DNA of 64,000 bases, taken from assembly GCF_001277135.1 (NCBI RefSeq), contig NZ_LHCF01000002.1:1-64000 (forward strand). The letters run 5' to 3'. Position 1 is the first letter of the stretch; each line of letters begins with the position of its first letter. The notes beneath the pieces are model-generated. The model was not told where the DNA came from, did no database searches, and saw only the letters and a list, made by a program, of their open reading frames with translations. The DNA comes from Candidatus Phytoplasma pruni. GTDB taxonomy: Bacteria; Bacillota_I; Bacilli_A; Acholeplasmatales; Acholeplasmataceae. Positions 54,703-60,775 of this stretch are shown here, in pieces. Position numbers and translations under genes: made by a program.

Positions 54703-55428
54703 ATGGACGCCAATATTTCCAACAAGAAAAATAACATTAAAAAATGGACAAGTTTGATTTTAAATGATATTGTCTTATCTATCGCTATTTATTTCTTTTT
54801 AATTTCTACTAATTTAAACATAGGAGGAATGGATGGCTTAGCTATGTTGATGGAAAAATTGGTTAAACCCTATTTATTTTCAAAAAGTTTTTCTAATATT
54901 TCTATTTTTATTTTCCTCGCTCAAGTATTTTCCTTAATAGTTGGTTGGAAAGCTTTTGGCAAAGAATTCTTCACTAAAACCGCTTTTTTAGTTATTATTT
55001 TAATTGTCAGCGTTCCTCTTTTTGATTTGTTAACTGGCGAGAATAAAGGCAAGATTTTTGATTTATTACATATAAAAAACATATACGTTCAATTAGTTAT
55101 TGCTTCTCTGATGAGCGGTCTTCTGATTGGAACTACGTTGGCAAACATTCGAAACCACGGTTATACTACTGGGGGAATGGATGTTTTTCATAAACTTTTA
55201 AAAGATAAGTTTAAAATTAATTTCATTATTATTTTATTTATGACTGATGGTGTTTTAGTTTCAATTGATTCTTTATTAAAAAGTATGGAAAATAAAAAAG
55301 AATTTGATGGAAAAGTTTTTTTGGAAACTGGGATTAGATTGTTATTGTCTTATATAACTATCACTATTATTGGTTATATCATGGAAAAGAAAAATAAAAT
55401 TAACGTTGATATTGCCGATAACAAATAA
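54703..55428 (+). CDS. YitT-family membrane protein (DUF161)
   Basis: This 241-residue protein has five to six predicted helices. The segments NIGGMDGLAMLMEKLV and HGYTTGGMDVFHKLLKDKFK match the YitT pattern (GG-x-GL and GGTDIIAK-like). Family members are probably transporters of unknown substrate. The C-terminal domain usual in YitT proteins (DUF2179) is missing. No ribosome site is seen right before the ATG; AAAGGAG lies about 45 bases upstream. Confidence 0.65.
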   Translation: MDANISNKKNNIKKWTSLILNDIVLSIAIYFFLISTNLNIGGMDGLAMLMEKLVKPYLFSKSFSNISIFIFLAQVFSLIVGWKAFGKEFFTKTAFLVIILIVSVPLFDLLTGENKGKIFDLLHIKNIYVQLVIASLMSGLLIGTTLANIRNHGYTTGGMDVFHKLLKDKFKINFIIILFMTDGVLVSIDSLLKSMENKKEFDGKVFLETGIRLLLSYITITIIGYIMEKKNKINVDIADNK

Positions 55429-55494: not shown

Positions 55495-57306
55495 ATGTAT
55501 AACAACGGTTTTATTAAAATAGAATTATCCAATCCTGATTTGCACATCGGGAATCCCTTTAAGAATGCTGAAAGTATTCTTGAAGTTCTTAACCACAGCA
55601 AAGCTAGCTTTGTTTTATTTCCTGAATTATTTTTAAGTAGTTATACAGCTGGAGATTTATTTTTTGAAATTACTTTTTATCAGGAAGTTTTAGAATCTTT
55701 ACAATTTCTCATGGAAAAGACCGTTTTTGAAGGCGTTTATTTAGTAGGAATCCCTTTCTTTTTGGAAGAAGTTTTATTCAATGTCGCTGTGGTAATTCAA
55801 AAAGATAAAATTTTAGGCATTGTTCCTAAACACACTATTCCTAATTATAAAGAATTTAGCGAAAAAAGATGGTTTCATTCTGGCAAAACTATCCAAACAC
55901 AAGAGATTGATTTTTTAGGACAAAAAGTACCTGTCGGTAATATTTTGTTTATTAATAAACAATTCGATATCAGTTTTGGGGTGGAGATTTGTCAAGATTT
56001 ATGGACTATTGAATCTCCTAGTGATTTATTAGCTTTAAATGGAGCGGAATTGATTTTTAACTTATCTTCTTCTACCGAACATATCGGTAAAAAAGAAATG
56101 CGCAAAAACGCGGTTATTAATCATTCTCGTAAACATATTGGTGGTTATTTTTACACTAGTAGTGGAATTACAGAATCATCTACTGATGTTCTTTTTTCTA
56201 ATCATAAAATAGCCGCTGTTTTCGGTAATTTAATTGGTGAAAAAGATTTATTTAACCAAGATGATACTAGCTTAGTCGTTGATGTTTGCATTGATTCTAT
56301 CAAACACCAAAGAAGAATTGATACCACTTTAGGGGACCAAAAAATCGGCAAAGAATATCCTTTTTTTAAAGCTTATTTCGATATTAAAGAATATGATAAT
56401 TATGAATTTGAAAAACCTTTCTACCAAAAACCTTTCGTGGAAATGAATGATTTAGAGGAACAATTAAAACTAGCGAACCATATTCAGTTTTTATCTTTAC
56501 AAAGTAAATTATCGCATATTAAAAATGTGAAAGTGATTTTAAAATTAGCTTCGCGTTCGAACGAATTATTATCCCTTTTGGCGGTTATACAAAGTTTTCA
56601 AGCTAGTAAAAAAACACTAGATGATTTGATTGTGATTATGGAAGATGAAAAAGATTTTCAACCTGATTTTGTTGCATTGATTAAAAACTTTTTAAACAAC
56701 TTAGGGATTAAAAATATTCTTCTGGATAATGAGGTTCATCAACCTCAAGTTAAAGAGCAGTTTAGCAAAAAATTGATCCATCACGCTTTAAGTAAGTTTA
56801 CCCCAAATCCTCTGATGTTGGATGATTCACAAATTTTAGTGTTAGAAAGTGATAATTTGTCCGATACGGCTTTAGGAAAAGTAAGTGAAAGAATGGATTA
56901 TTACGATCAATTGTATAATGTTAATGTTGGTTTAAGCCAAACTTTCATGACTGAATTGATTTTTTTTCATTTGAATAAACCTATCATTCCTATTCCTCCT
57001 GAATTAAAAGTTTTTTACCAAGAACAGATAGAAAAATTTTTAACCCCTAATATCATCATAGAAGATTTTATTTTATATCATCATTTAAAAAATAATTTTT
57101 CTAAAGCAAAAATCGCTTTTTTAATTGAACACACTTTCGCTTTAAATGCGGAAGAAAGTTTAGTTTTAGTGCAAAATTATTTAAAAACTTTTTATCAGGT
57201 GCAATACAAAAGGCAACAAATGTCCCCAGGTCCTAAAATTTTAGAAAATAGCCTTTCACCGAGAACGGAATTTAAGTTACCTATTAATTTCCAACGAAAA
57301 GAGTGA
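55495..57306 (+). CDS. nadE: glutamine-dependent NAD synthetase homologue with degraded ATP site
   Basis: This 603-residue protein has the two-domain NadE layout. The nitrilase-like glutaminase domain keeps the triad Glu44 (FPELF), Lys112 (PKHT) and Cys166 (GVEICQDLW). The synthetase domain should have SGGLDS; residues 346-362 read VKVILKLASRSNELLSL, so the PP-loop is gone. TGDLSELALGW is changed to SDNLSDTALGK. The end (YKRQQMSPGPKILENSLSPR) is still NadE-like. It may be a pseudo-synthetase, an amidase, or an inactive relic kept in frame. The stop is TGA. mnmA follows 33 bases later. Confidence 0.85.
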   Translation: MYNNGFIKIELSNPDLHIGNPFKNAESILEVLNHSKASFVLFPELFLSSYTAGDLFFEITFYQEVLESLQFLMEKTVFEGVYLVGIPFFLEEVLFNVAVVIQKDKILGIVPKHTIPNYKEFSEKRWFHSGKTIQTQEIDFLGQKVPVGNILFINKQFDISFGVEICQDLWTIESPSDLLALNGAELIFNLSSSTEHIGKKEMRKNAVINHSRKHIGGYFYTSSGITESSTDVLFSNHKIAAVFGNLIGEKDLFNQDDTSLVVDVCIDSIKHQRRIDTTLGDQKIGKEYPFFKAYFDIKEYDNYEFEKPFYQKPFVEMNDLEEQLKLANHIQFLSLQSKLSHIKNVKVILKLASRSNELLSLLAVIQSFQASKKTLDDLIVIMEDEKDFQPDFVALIKNFLNNLGIKNILLDNEVHQPQVKEQFSKKLIHHALSKFTPNPLMLDDSQILVLESDNLSDTALGKVSERMDYYDQLYNVNVGLSQTFMTELIFFHLNKPIIPIPPELKVFYQEQIEKFLTPNIIIEDFILYHHLKNNFSKAKIAFLIEHTFALNAEESLVLVQNYLKTFYQVQYKRQQMSPGPKILENSLSPRTEFKLPINFQRKE

Positions 57307-57339: not shown

Positions 57340-58482
57340 ATGAAAAAAAAAGTGATTGTTGGTTTATCAGGTGGAGTTGATAGTAGCGTCACGGCTTTAT
57401 TATTAAAACAACAAGGTTATGAGGTAGAAGGTATTTTTATGCGTAATTGGGATAGTAGTTTGAATTATGATGTTCAAGGTAATCCTAATGTTAATGATGA
57501 TGTTTGCCCTCAAACAGCCGATTTTAATGATGCTGCTGCCATCGCCAAACAATTAGATATTAAATTTCATCAAGTTGATTTTTCCGAAGAATATTGGGAC
57601 CAAGTGTTTTCATATTTTTTAAAATTATTAAAACAAAATTTAACCCCTAATCCTGATGTTTTATGCAATAATCAAATTAAATTTCTCACTTTTATCGAAT
57701 ATGCCGAACAATTCAATCCTGATTTTATCGCTATGGGGCATTATGCCAATATTACTCATGAAAAAAATCAACCCATCTTAACTAAAGCTTGGGACGATAC
57801 TAAAGACCAAACTTATTTTTTATCTCAACTTAAACAAAAACAATTAGATAAAATTCTTTTCCCTTTAGGAAAAATGAATAAAAAAGAAGTCAGAGAAATC
57901 GCGGCTAAAAATTCTTTAATAACAGCGAGAAAAAAAGACTCCACTGGTATTTGTTTTATCGGAGAACGCAAATTCAGTTCTTTTTTAAAAAATTATATTC
58001 CTGCTAAAAAAGGCCCTATTAAAGATATGAATGGTAAGTTGTTTCAAGAACATGAAGGCGTTTTTAATTATACTATTGGTCAAAGAAAAGGTCTTAATTT
58101 AGGGGTTACTCAAGAAAATCAAGCCCCTTGGTTTGTTGTGGGTAAAGAATTACCTACCAATACTTTGTTTGTGGACCAAAGTTATGACAGTCCTTACCTT
58201 TATAGCGATGCAGCTTTAATCATTGATGTGGTATGGAGAAATTATGGTGTTTATCAAAATCATGGTAAAATGAAGATGATGGCTAAATTTCGTTATCGTC
58301 AACCCGATCAAGAAGTGGAACTTGTTTGGTTGGATAAAACAACTTTAAAAGTGTATTATCCCCAAAAAATCAAAGCTGTTACGCCAGGGCAAATAGCGGC
58401 TTTTTATAAAGATGATTTTTGTCTAGGAGCGGGAATGATTAAAGAAGTTTATTATCAAGAGAAAAAACTTTCATATGTTTAA
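57340..58482 (+). CDS. mnmA: tRNA-specific 2-thiouridylase MnmA
   Basis: MnmA, 380 residues, makes s2U at position 34 of tRNA-Lys, -Glu and -Gln. It has the PP-loop SGGVDSSV at 9-16, the first catalytic Cys in NPDVLCNNQIKF (near residue 108) and the second in STGICFIGER (near 206). The C-terminal beta-barrel domain is complete. It works together with MnmE (also here) on the same wobble base; the tRNA-Glu (TTC) in this window is a substrate. Confidence 0.97.
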   Translation: MKKKVIVGLSGGVDSSVTALLLKQQGYEVEGIFMRNWDSSLNYDVQGNPNVNDDVCPQTADFNDAAAIAKQLDIKFHQVDFSEEYWDQVFSYFLKLLKQNLTPNPDVLCNNQIKFLTFIEYAEQFNPDFIAMGHYANITHEKNQPILTKAWDDTKDQTYFLSQLKQKQLDKILFPLGKMNKKEVREIAAKNSLITARKKDSTGICFIGERKFSSFLKNYIPAKKGPIKDMNGKLFQEHEGVFNYTIGQRKGLNLGVTQENQAPWFVVGKELPTNTLFVDQSYDSPYLYSDAALIIDVVWRNYGVYQNHGKMKMMAKFRYRQPDQEVELVWLDKTTLKVYYPQKIKAVTPGQIAAFYKDDFCLGAGMIKEVYYQEKKLSYV

Positions 58483-58530: not shown

Positions 58531-60775
58531 GTGATTAAAGTGCTTTTTAATACTACTGAAACCCATAACATAGAAAAAAAAGTTCATGAAGAAGTTTTAT
58601 TCCAAGAATTGATGCAAAAAGTAAAAAAATACATTCATGAAAAAACAGTCTTAGATAAAATTAATCAAGCTTATTTATTGGCTAAAAAACAACATACAAA
58701 TCAAAAAAGAGTAACAGGTGAAAATTTCATTATTCACCCTATTTCTGTTGCTATTATTTTAGCTGATTTGAATAGTGAACCCAATACTTTAATGGCTGGT
58801 TTATTACACGATTCTTTAGAAGATACGGATTTAACTTTTGATGAATTAAAGGATTTTTTAGGGGAAGATGTGGCTTATATAGTGAAAAGCACCACTAAAT
58901 TAGCTAAACTTAGTTTTAACCCTAAACAAAGACAAGTAGAAAACCATCAAAAACTTTTTTTAGCTATGGCTAATGATATTAGAGTAGTTTTAGTAAAAAT
59001 AGCAGATAGACTACATAATATGCAGACTTTAAAAGAAATGAAGCCTGAAAAACAATTACATATTTCCCAAGAAACATTAGATATTTATGTTCCTTTAACC
59101 CATCGTTTAGGTCTTTTTCAAATTAAATCTCAATTAGAAGATTTAACTTTTAGATATATGAACCCTAAAGAATATTACCGCATTTCTAACTTAATTAACG
59201 CTAAAAAAAATGAACGCGAAAATTCTATCCAAAATATTATTAAAAATATTAAATCTTTATTTTATAAGTCCGGCATTACTGATTTTTCCATTAGCGGACG
59301 TAGTAAAAATATTTATAGTATTTATAAAAAGATGAACCAAGGACAAGTTAGTTTTGACGAAATTTTTGACTTATTAGCGGTTCGTATTATTGTGGATAAA
59401 GTAGATGTATGTTATCAATGTTTAGGCCTTATTCACGCTCATTATTCTCCTTTACCAAGGAGATTTAAGGATTATATCGTTGTTCCAAAGCCTAATTTAT
59501 ACCAAGCCCTTCATAACACGGTTTTAGCCAAAGATGGTTCTATTTTTGAAATCCAAATCAAAACTAAAGAAATGGATGAAATTGCCGAAAAAGGAATCGC
59601 CGCCCATTGGGGTTATAAAGAAAATAAAGTTTATTCCAAAGACAATAAACAGTTGGAAATAGCGCAAAAATTAAGATGGTACCAAGATTTAATTAAAATC
59701 ACCAAAGATACTAAAAATAAATCTCTACAAAATTCCAAAAATTTAGTAGATTCTATTAAAAATGATATTTTAAGCAAAAATGTTTATGTTTTTACACCGA
59801 AACAAGAAGTATTCGAATTTCCAGAAGGTTCCACACCTATTGATTTTGCTTTCCGTATACATTCTATGATTGGTTTTACCATGACAGGCGCTATTGTGAA
59901 CGAAAAAATCGTTCCTCTTGATTATAAGCTGAAAAACGGTGATATTATTTCTATTAAAACAAATAAAAACGTTTTTAGAGTGCATAAGGATTGGTTGAGG
60001 ATAGCAAAAACTTCTTATGTTAAAAAATTCATTACAAATTTTTTAAATAAACAGAAAAAAGAAGTTTTAACTTTAATCCAAAATGGTAAAGAAATTTTAG
60101 ATAAAGAATTGCAAGCACAAAAGAAAGATTTTAAAATTGACCACAATTTTGTTAGAAAAAGTTTTCACAAGCAATCTATTCAAAATGTTCATGAATTATA
60201 TGAAGCTTTGGGAAGAAAAAAAAATCACTCCTGATGTGGTGCTCGCTAAAATCAATTCTTTTGAAGAAATACGCAAAGAATACAATAAAGAACAAATTTC
60301 AAAAAAATTGAAAAAATTCACTTATGAAAACGAAACAGGTGTTTTTATTGAAGGATTAAATAAAACTAAATTAAAATTAGCGAATTGTTGCAATCCTATT
60401 TTTGGCGAAGAAATAGTGGGTTTTATTACCAAAGATAAAGGCACCAATGTTCACCGTAAAGATTGTGTTAATTTACAACAATACGATTCTAACCGTCTTA
60501 TTGTCGCTCATTGGCGCCAAAATTATCAATTAAAATACGCCACTTGGCTTTTGATTATTGGTTCTTATAGTTCTTCTTTAATTGCTAATATTACTGATAA
60601 AGCTAACGCTTTAGGAATTCATATTTCTAAAATAAACATGATTAATAATAATAAATTATCAGAAACCACTATTAAACTGCAAATACTAGTAAAAAATATT
60701 TCTGAAATGGAAAAATTAATTTCTCATTTATTACAATTATCTAATATTTATCAAATTTATAGAGGAACAAATTAA
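58531..60775 (+). CDS. spoT: bifunctional (p)ppGpp synthetase/hydrolase Rel/SpoT, frame interrupted once
   Basis: Rel/SpoT, about 747 residues if rejoined. The HD hydrolase has HPISVAIILADL and HDSLEDTD. The synthetase has GRSKNIYSIYKKM and RFKDYIV (RxKD type, bifunctional). TGS starts NVYVFTPKQEVFEFPEGSTP. After a nine-A run (60216-60224) the frame changes. Removing one A joins ALGRKK to ITPDVVLAKI and restores the zinc-finger/CC part (LANCCNPIFGEEIVGF) and the ACT end. GTG 58531 or GTG 58540 could be the start; AGGTGA favours the second. Without repair the product would lose its regulatory end. Confidence 0.93.

Follow-up and report, generated by a model that had tools for sequence, protein, structure and literature searches.

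NadE-like proteins of phytoplasmas: a lost NAD synthetase site beside a conserved nitrilase-like half

The best described relative of the protein reported here is the glutamine-dependent NAD synthetase of Mycobacterium tuberculosis (Mtb NadE; 3DLA, 3SZG, 6OFC; NF002730). In this enzyme the glutaminase is nearly off until NaAD-AMP has been made by the synthetase: it works at 0.0038 per second alone and is 179-fold faster once the synthetase intermediate forms (PMC6946656). The phytoplasma protein shares the two-domain architecture throughout (Z 44, 25% identity), together with the Cys-Glu-Lys triad, the second Glu, the YRE loop and the C-terminal tunnel lysine, but it is without the ATP loop, part of the P2 loop, the NaAD contacts and the YENxQAR segment. 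Sister Acholeplasmataceae have orthologous NadE proteins (L032 and L039 in genus g3; L076 in Acholeplasma laidlawii), which are the nearest clade and are also encoded before mnmA. L032 and L039 are 44-45% identical to the phytoplasma protein over the full length. The sister proteins differ in having kept SGGLDS; their genes are arranged as nadD-nadE-mnmA and these genomes also contain pncB, while phytoplasmas have neither nadD nor pncB.

Two other groups can be compared with it. Stand-alone amidases (Nit2, N-carbamoylputrescine amidase, aliphatic amidase) share the fold of residues 1-290 (Z 26-28) and the type of triad, but they contain no synthetase-derived half and are distant in sequence (11-20%). 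The NadE of genus g5 (L150, L151, L152) is similar in that one half of a two-domain NadE was lost by residue changes and the other stays; there, however, the catalytic Cys, the YRE loop and the tunnel Lys are lost and SGGADS is kept. Under the name nadE, the gene serves as a routine genetic marker of phytoplasmas (PMC13259348).

The nadE-like gene, its neighbours and its history

The window (the whole analysed stretch of 64,000 nucleotides from 'Candidatus Phytoplasma pruni') contains the nadE-like gene between two neighbours:

54703..55428, + strand: YitT-family membrane protein, the upstream neighbour in one phytoplasma clade
55495..57306, + strand: nadE-like gene of 603 codons and a stop codon, the orthologue in phytoplasmas of the glutamine-dependent NAD synthetase gene
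57340..58482, + strand: mnmA, the ancestral downstream neighbour (profile searches; synteny)

The family sample comprised 88 Acholeplasmataceae genomes, 29 from phytoplasmas and 59 from sister genera. The gene order in sister genera is nadD-nadE-mnmA, with nadE directly before mnmA, and a canonical NadE is found at this position in 57 of the 59 sister-genus genomes and in none of the 29 phytoplasmas. TIGR00552 is matched above the cut-off in 57 of the 88 genomes, all outside the phytoplasmas. The phytoplasma NadE-like copies, which a protein search found in 28 of the 29 genomes (27 copies intact), form a single clade in the tree, sister to the canonical NadE of genus g3. By tree, synteny and two-domain fold, the nadE-like gene is an orthologue that descends from NadE.

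We also searched for a second NadE with PF02540 and TIGR00552, and the phytoplasmas gave only the PP-loop of the neighbouring MnmA or similarly weak places. For the genome of the window (598,511 bases, 46 contigs), the mnmA PP-loop was the sole match to the NAD_synthase profile. An earlier sequence-only reading of this gene had suggested that its product may be a partner of another synthetase, which is disfavoured because the search for a second nadE found none in the 29 phytoplasma genomes.

'Ca. P. luffae' (G009) is the one phytoplasma genome without the gene. No NadE-like remnant was found upstream of its mnmA (L062, 453-5809), a region with sigma-like, SSB and HU-like genes reminiscent of mobile units. 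This genome is nested inside the genus in the MnmA tree, so the gene loss there is secondary. The copy of another genome (G001, L063) is frameshifted around residues 254-285, seemingly by two compensating frameshifts, and the remainder of its frame is intact; the interruption is either genuine or an artefact of sequencing.

The upstream neighbour varies by clade, with prfB-YitT in the clade of the window and groEL-amp in the aster-yellows/stolbur type (L065, L066, L068, L071, L074). Gene neighbours were rejected as a clue to function, since the mnmA adjacency is ancestral and the upstream neighbour depends on the clade. Besides, a RelA/SpoT-like gene of the window (58531-60775) is divided into two overlapping frames of 567 and 212 aa; elsewhere in phytoplasmas it is a single frame of about 736-741 aa.

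Residues lost and kept in the two halves

To compare the halves, 28 canonical Acholeplasmataceae NadE were taken as the reference, and a column was called invariant when it was at least 95% conserved among them. Residue roles follow the published structural work on the Mtb and human enzymes (PMC6946656). The features of the protein are as follows, with counts given for the 27 intact phytoplasma copies:

55495..56394, + strand: nitrilase-like glutaminase domain, residues 1-300, intact (PF00795, E 1.4e-10; 58 of 73 invariant canonical columns)
55624..55626, + strand: Glu44, catalytic general base (Mtb Glu52), 27/27; role from PMC6946656
55828..55830, + strand: Lys112, catalytic (Mtb Lys121), 27/27; role from PMC6946656
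55846..55863, + strand: YRE-loop equivalent YKEFSE, residues 118-123 (Tyr118, Glu120, Phe121 and second Glu123 27/27); role from PMC6946656
55990..55992, + strand: Cys166, catalytic nucleophile (Mtb Cys176), 27/27
56548..56565, + strand: degenerate PP-loop, residues 352-357, ASRSNE instead of SGGLDS (alignment with canonical relatives)
56722..56832, + strand: variable low-confidence stretch, residues 410-446, YENxQARxR gone, length different among species
56842..56880, + strand: altered second motif, residues 450-462, LESDNLSDTALGK; GTGD and the nicotinate-stacking Trp/Phe lost, Asp to Asn454 fixed in 27/27
57025..57063, + strand: shortened P2-loop region, residues 511-523; Q524, G531 and Y533 of L032 gapped in 27/27
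57064..57093, + strand: start of the retained helix linking P2 loop and glutaminase (alpha17 equivalent, DFILYHHLKN), Asp524 and Phe525 27/27; role from PMC6946656
57202..57264, + strand: retained C-terminal segment, residues 570-590, QYKRQQMSPGPKILENSLSPR, which includes Lys581

Residues 346-362 (56530-56580) read KVILKLASRSNELLSLL and are aligned to KIIIGISGGLDSTLALL of the closest canonical relative. The sequence-only reading had seen here the SGGLDS region of NAD synthetase with a lost PP-loop, and our alignment agrees, placing A352-E357 at the SGGLDS position. It had also described an altered second nucleotide/NaAD segment, and S452-K462 (SDNLSDTALGK) indeed stands where canonical relatives have TGDMSEIALGW. 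What it understated was the scope, since the P2 loop and YENxQAR are affected too, and across the genus. The SGGxDS ATP-pyrophosphatase loop is absent from all 27 intact phytoplasma copies and present in all 28 canonical relatives; a search for any phytoplasma NadE that carries the canonical loop found none. With the loop missing from the intact copies of 27 genomes, a sequencing or assembly error is excluded as the cause. Among the 73 non-phytoplasma loci retained in a scan of genome contigs there is no degenerate PP-loop, save the NadE of Mycoplasmatota bacterium zrk7 (L094, 2632-4359), which has SGGLDY for SGGLDS and is otherwise canonical.

The losses reach well beyond the loop: of the invariant columns, phytoplasmas retain 21 of 107 in the synthetase half, whereas the glutaminase half has 58 of its 73 left. 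GTGD, with its Asp replaced by a fixed Asn, and the nicotinate-stacking aromatic are lost in 27 of 27 copies, the YENxQAR segment and part of the P2 loop are missing, and neither the adenine-contact Phe nor the Lys of LPKT is still conserved. In Pfam searches the 603-aa protein was matched by CN_hydrolase and no NAD_synthase domain was found, while both were matched in the closest canonical relative (NAD_synthase at 4e-40). The best NCBIfam match of the phytoplasma protein is NF002730, with 303 bits where the cut-off is 473. TIGR00552 gave no match; the canonical L032 scores 637 and 116 for these two models. As the phytoplasma copies are one clade sister to canonical g3, a single loss of the synthetase site preceded the divergence of the sampled phytoplasmas. 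That every synthetase motif is gone from the 27 intact copies supports the earlier inference that this protein cannot form NAD in the usual manner, and judging from these residues the phytoplasma 'NadE' is almost certainly not an NAD synthetase. By descent it is a NadE; by function it appears to lie outside the NadE enzyme family, as its ATP site is not recognizable in the residues.

The other half presents a different picture. Glu44, Lys112, Cys166 and the second Glu (E123) are invariant in 27 of 27 aligned copies, and so are Tyr50, Tyr118, Glu120, Phe121, the gate Trp170, Asp524, Phe525 and Lys581, the last of which corresponds to Mtb Lys644 of ammonia-tunnel constriction 2A. The KRQQMSPGPK tail is present at the C-terminal end of the window protein; its retention, like that of the triad in a frame open over 603 codons, had been noted before and proved correct. 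The Cys-Glu-Lys triad with the second Glu, the CN_hydrolase fold and the Pfam match place the protein in the nitrilase superfamily. Tyr118, whose Mtb counterpart contacts glutamine (PMC6946656), is variable in canonical relatives (17 of 28) and fixed in phytoplasmas.

The same triad might have been turned to a different substrate than glutamine, perhaps some other small amide. The nitrilase fold spans amidases, Nit2, N-carbamoylputrescine amidase and others, all of which match the model, and Ser48, His196 and Phe219 are invariant among phytoplasmas and rare in canonical copies. However, the known glutamine-holding and gate residues of NadE (Tyr118, Glu123, Trp170) are unchanged, and Gln167 is ancestral in this family, so this alternative seems unlikely. 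We consider it reasonably probable from these residues that the phytoplasma 'NadE' is an active amidase, most likely a glutaminase; of the three fates proposed in the sequence-only reading, an amidase fits best.

Conservation within the phytoplasmas is consistent with this. The mean pairwise identity of glutaminase, core and C-terminal parts is 0.69, 0.38 and 0.49 among phytoplasmas; canonical copies give 0.58, 0.60 and 0.68. Constraint is thus inverted, the glutaminase having become the half on which it is strongest. In all three parts, close phytoplasma pairs mostly have Nei-Gojobori dN/dS values of 0.06-0.4, estimates that are rough in AT-rich genomes; the low values in the synthetase core mean that the dead core is not neutral. 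A slowly decaying relic that is no longer needed would agree with the loss of the gene next to mobile-element genes in 'Ca. P. luffae' and with the interrupted G001 copy. Nevertheless, the frame is open in 27 of 29 genomes, the loss of the synthetase site is older than the genus, dN/dS is well below 1 in all parts and the glutaminase half is 69% identical among phytoplasmas, which makes a relic very unlikely. Open frames, purifying selection in every part and inverted conservation speak against ordinary decay, and the early-stage relic of the previous reading is disfavoured as well, given the age of the loss and the continuing purifying selection.

An AlphaFold2 model of the 603-aa protein reached pLDDT 86.7 with a 46-sequence alignment, with values below 50 at residues 413-423 and 438-443. 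Aligned to Mtb NadE by VIA-align, it matched over the full length (Z 44.4, rmsd 2.5, 566 residues), and its first 290 residues matched single-domain nitrilases (Z 26-28). In the model the synthetase half keeps its fold, so the loss is not explained by truncation or unfolding. Since both halves remain folded in the predicted structure and some synthetase-domain residues are still invariant among phytoplasmas, one could think of a non-catalytic or regulatory protein whose oligomeric shell is kept for protein-protein contacts. In that case Cys166 or Lys112 should drift, as the catalytic Cys did in g5, but the catalytic and gate residues are kept in 27 of 27 copies; we regard such a role as improbable.

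The g5 proteins just mentioned are a mirror image. All three g5 genomes show changes at the catalytic Cys, the gate Trp position and Tyr50 and in most of the YRE loop. SGGADS is retained there, as is most of the synthetase (79 of 107 synthetase and 30 of 73 glutaminase columns). The g5 protein is presumably an ammonia-dependent NAD synthetase, and the g5 and phytoplasma NadE form a reciprocal pair. The position of Lys581 is Asn in all 3 g5 copies and Lys in all 27 phytoplasma copies, which suggests from the alignment that this residue serves the glutaminase although it lies in the synthetase half. The idea that the retained synthetase columns track the glutaminase as a set was rejected (Fisher p 0.42 against g5); only Lys581 stands out.

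NAD supply in phytoplasmas

It turned out that nadD has no match in the 29 phytoplasma genomes and a match in 58 of the 59 sister genomes, and that pncB is found in 0 of 29 and 51 of 59, respectively. PF01467 gave weak matches in eight phytoplasma genomes, inside frames of 310-382 aa that we take to be TmcAL-like proteins. PnuC was found in 0 of 29 phytoplasmas, and the NTT carrier (PF03219) had no match in phytoplasmas, nor in any control genome; the importer search proposed earlier yielded no NAD importer. An alternative NAD entry was rejected, since nadD, pncB and PnuC were not found. NAD kinase (PF01513) was found in 0 of 29 phytoplasmas and gave weak, mostly sub-threshold matches in the 59 sister-genus genomes; its loss as part of the same stem event was rejected, as it is not convincingly found in the sister genera either. 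The NAD-dependent DNA ligase LigA is present in all 29 phytoplasmas, 'Ca. P. luffae' included, which means that phytoplasmas still require NAD.

In the published metabolic model, phytoplasmas import deamido-NAD and NadE completes NAD (PMC3322544 section 8.3.1). With the final NadE step apparently missing too, they would have to import intact NAD, and on the gene content found here phytoplasmas probably import ready-made NAD. This contradicts the published model. Keeping that model would require a protein that still amidates imported deamido-NAD, with ATP and NaAD bound by other residues. The overall fold and length are retained, NF002730 remains the best NCBIfam match, and section 8.3.1 of PMC3322544 assumes such an activity. 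However, the PP-loop, GTGD, YENxQAR, part of the P2 loop, the LPKT Lys and the contact aromatics are lost or unconserved, 86 of the 107 invariant synthetase columns are gone, the NF002730 score is below its cut-off, TIGR00552 is unmatched, and 'Ca. P. luffae' retains LigA without any copy, so that this possibility is extremely unlikely. In a literature search that covered few subscription papers, we found no report of the loss of the synthetase site in phytoplasma NadE.

Proposed role and significance

Taken as a whole, the best explanation is that the synthetase site was lost, a glutaminase or amidase was freed on a dead scaffold and NAD is imported, which we consider fairly probable. In this order of events, nadD and pncB would have been lost first in the ancestor of the sampled phytoplasmas, making the NadE synthetase site useless; the site would then have decayed, and the protein would have been retained for its nitrilase-type half. 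With its Cys166-Glu44-Lys112 triad the protein would split glutamine, or some related small amide, into glutamate and ammonia, and NAD itself would be taken up from outside. In phloem sap, glutamine is often a predominant amino acid (PMC3322544). GatCAB was rejected as a consumer of the released ammonia, since it is reported absent from phytoplasmas (PMC3322544).

The NaAD-AMP signal of the Mtb enzyme would not arise in the phytoplasma protein, and its glutaminase must then have been freed from such control. Since no intermediate is to be expected and yet every glutaminase residue is kept, the glutaminase itself is best explained as the selected activity. The dead synthetase domain may act as a scaffold shaping the oligomer, with the C-terminal tail (Lys581) and the alpha17-like helix possibly holding the YRE loop of the glutaminase. 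A more specific version makes the dead synthetase a pseudoenzyme clamp, which would hold the glutaminase in a permanently active state via the Glu120-Lys581 contact inherited from the ammonia gate, in a genus without any NAD synthesis that imports intact NAD. It is tentative, and we think it somewhat doubtful. Against an essential role, 'Ca. P. luffae' survives without the nadE-like gene, the function of which is dispensable at least there.

Phytoplasmas are plant-infecting bacteria that harm many crops, and no attempt to grow them in cell-free culture has succeeded. If their NadE is no synthetase, there is no known NAD-forming step in the genus, and some transporter must then import NAD itself. 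If true, NAD import would alter expectations about the host and about any culture medium. For enzymology, phytoplasmas would offer a natural separation of the NadE halves, reversed in the sister lineage g5, and with it a direct test of which residues belong to which half.
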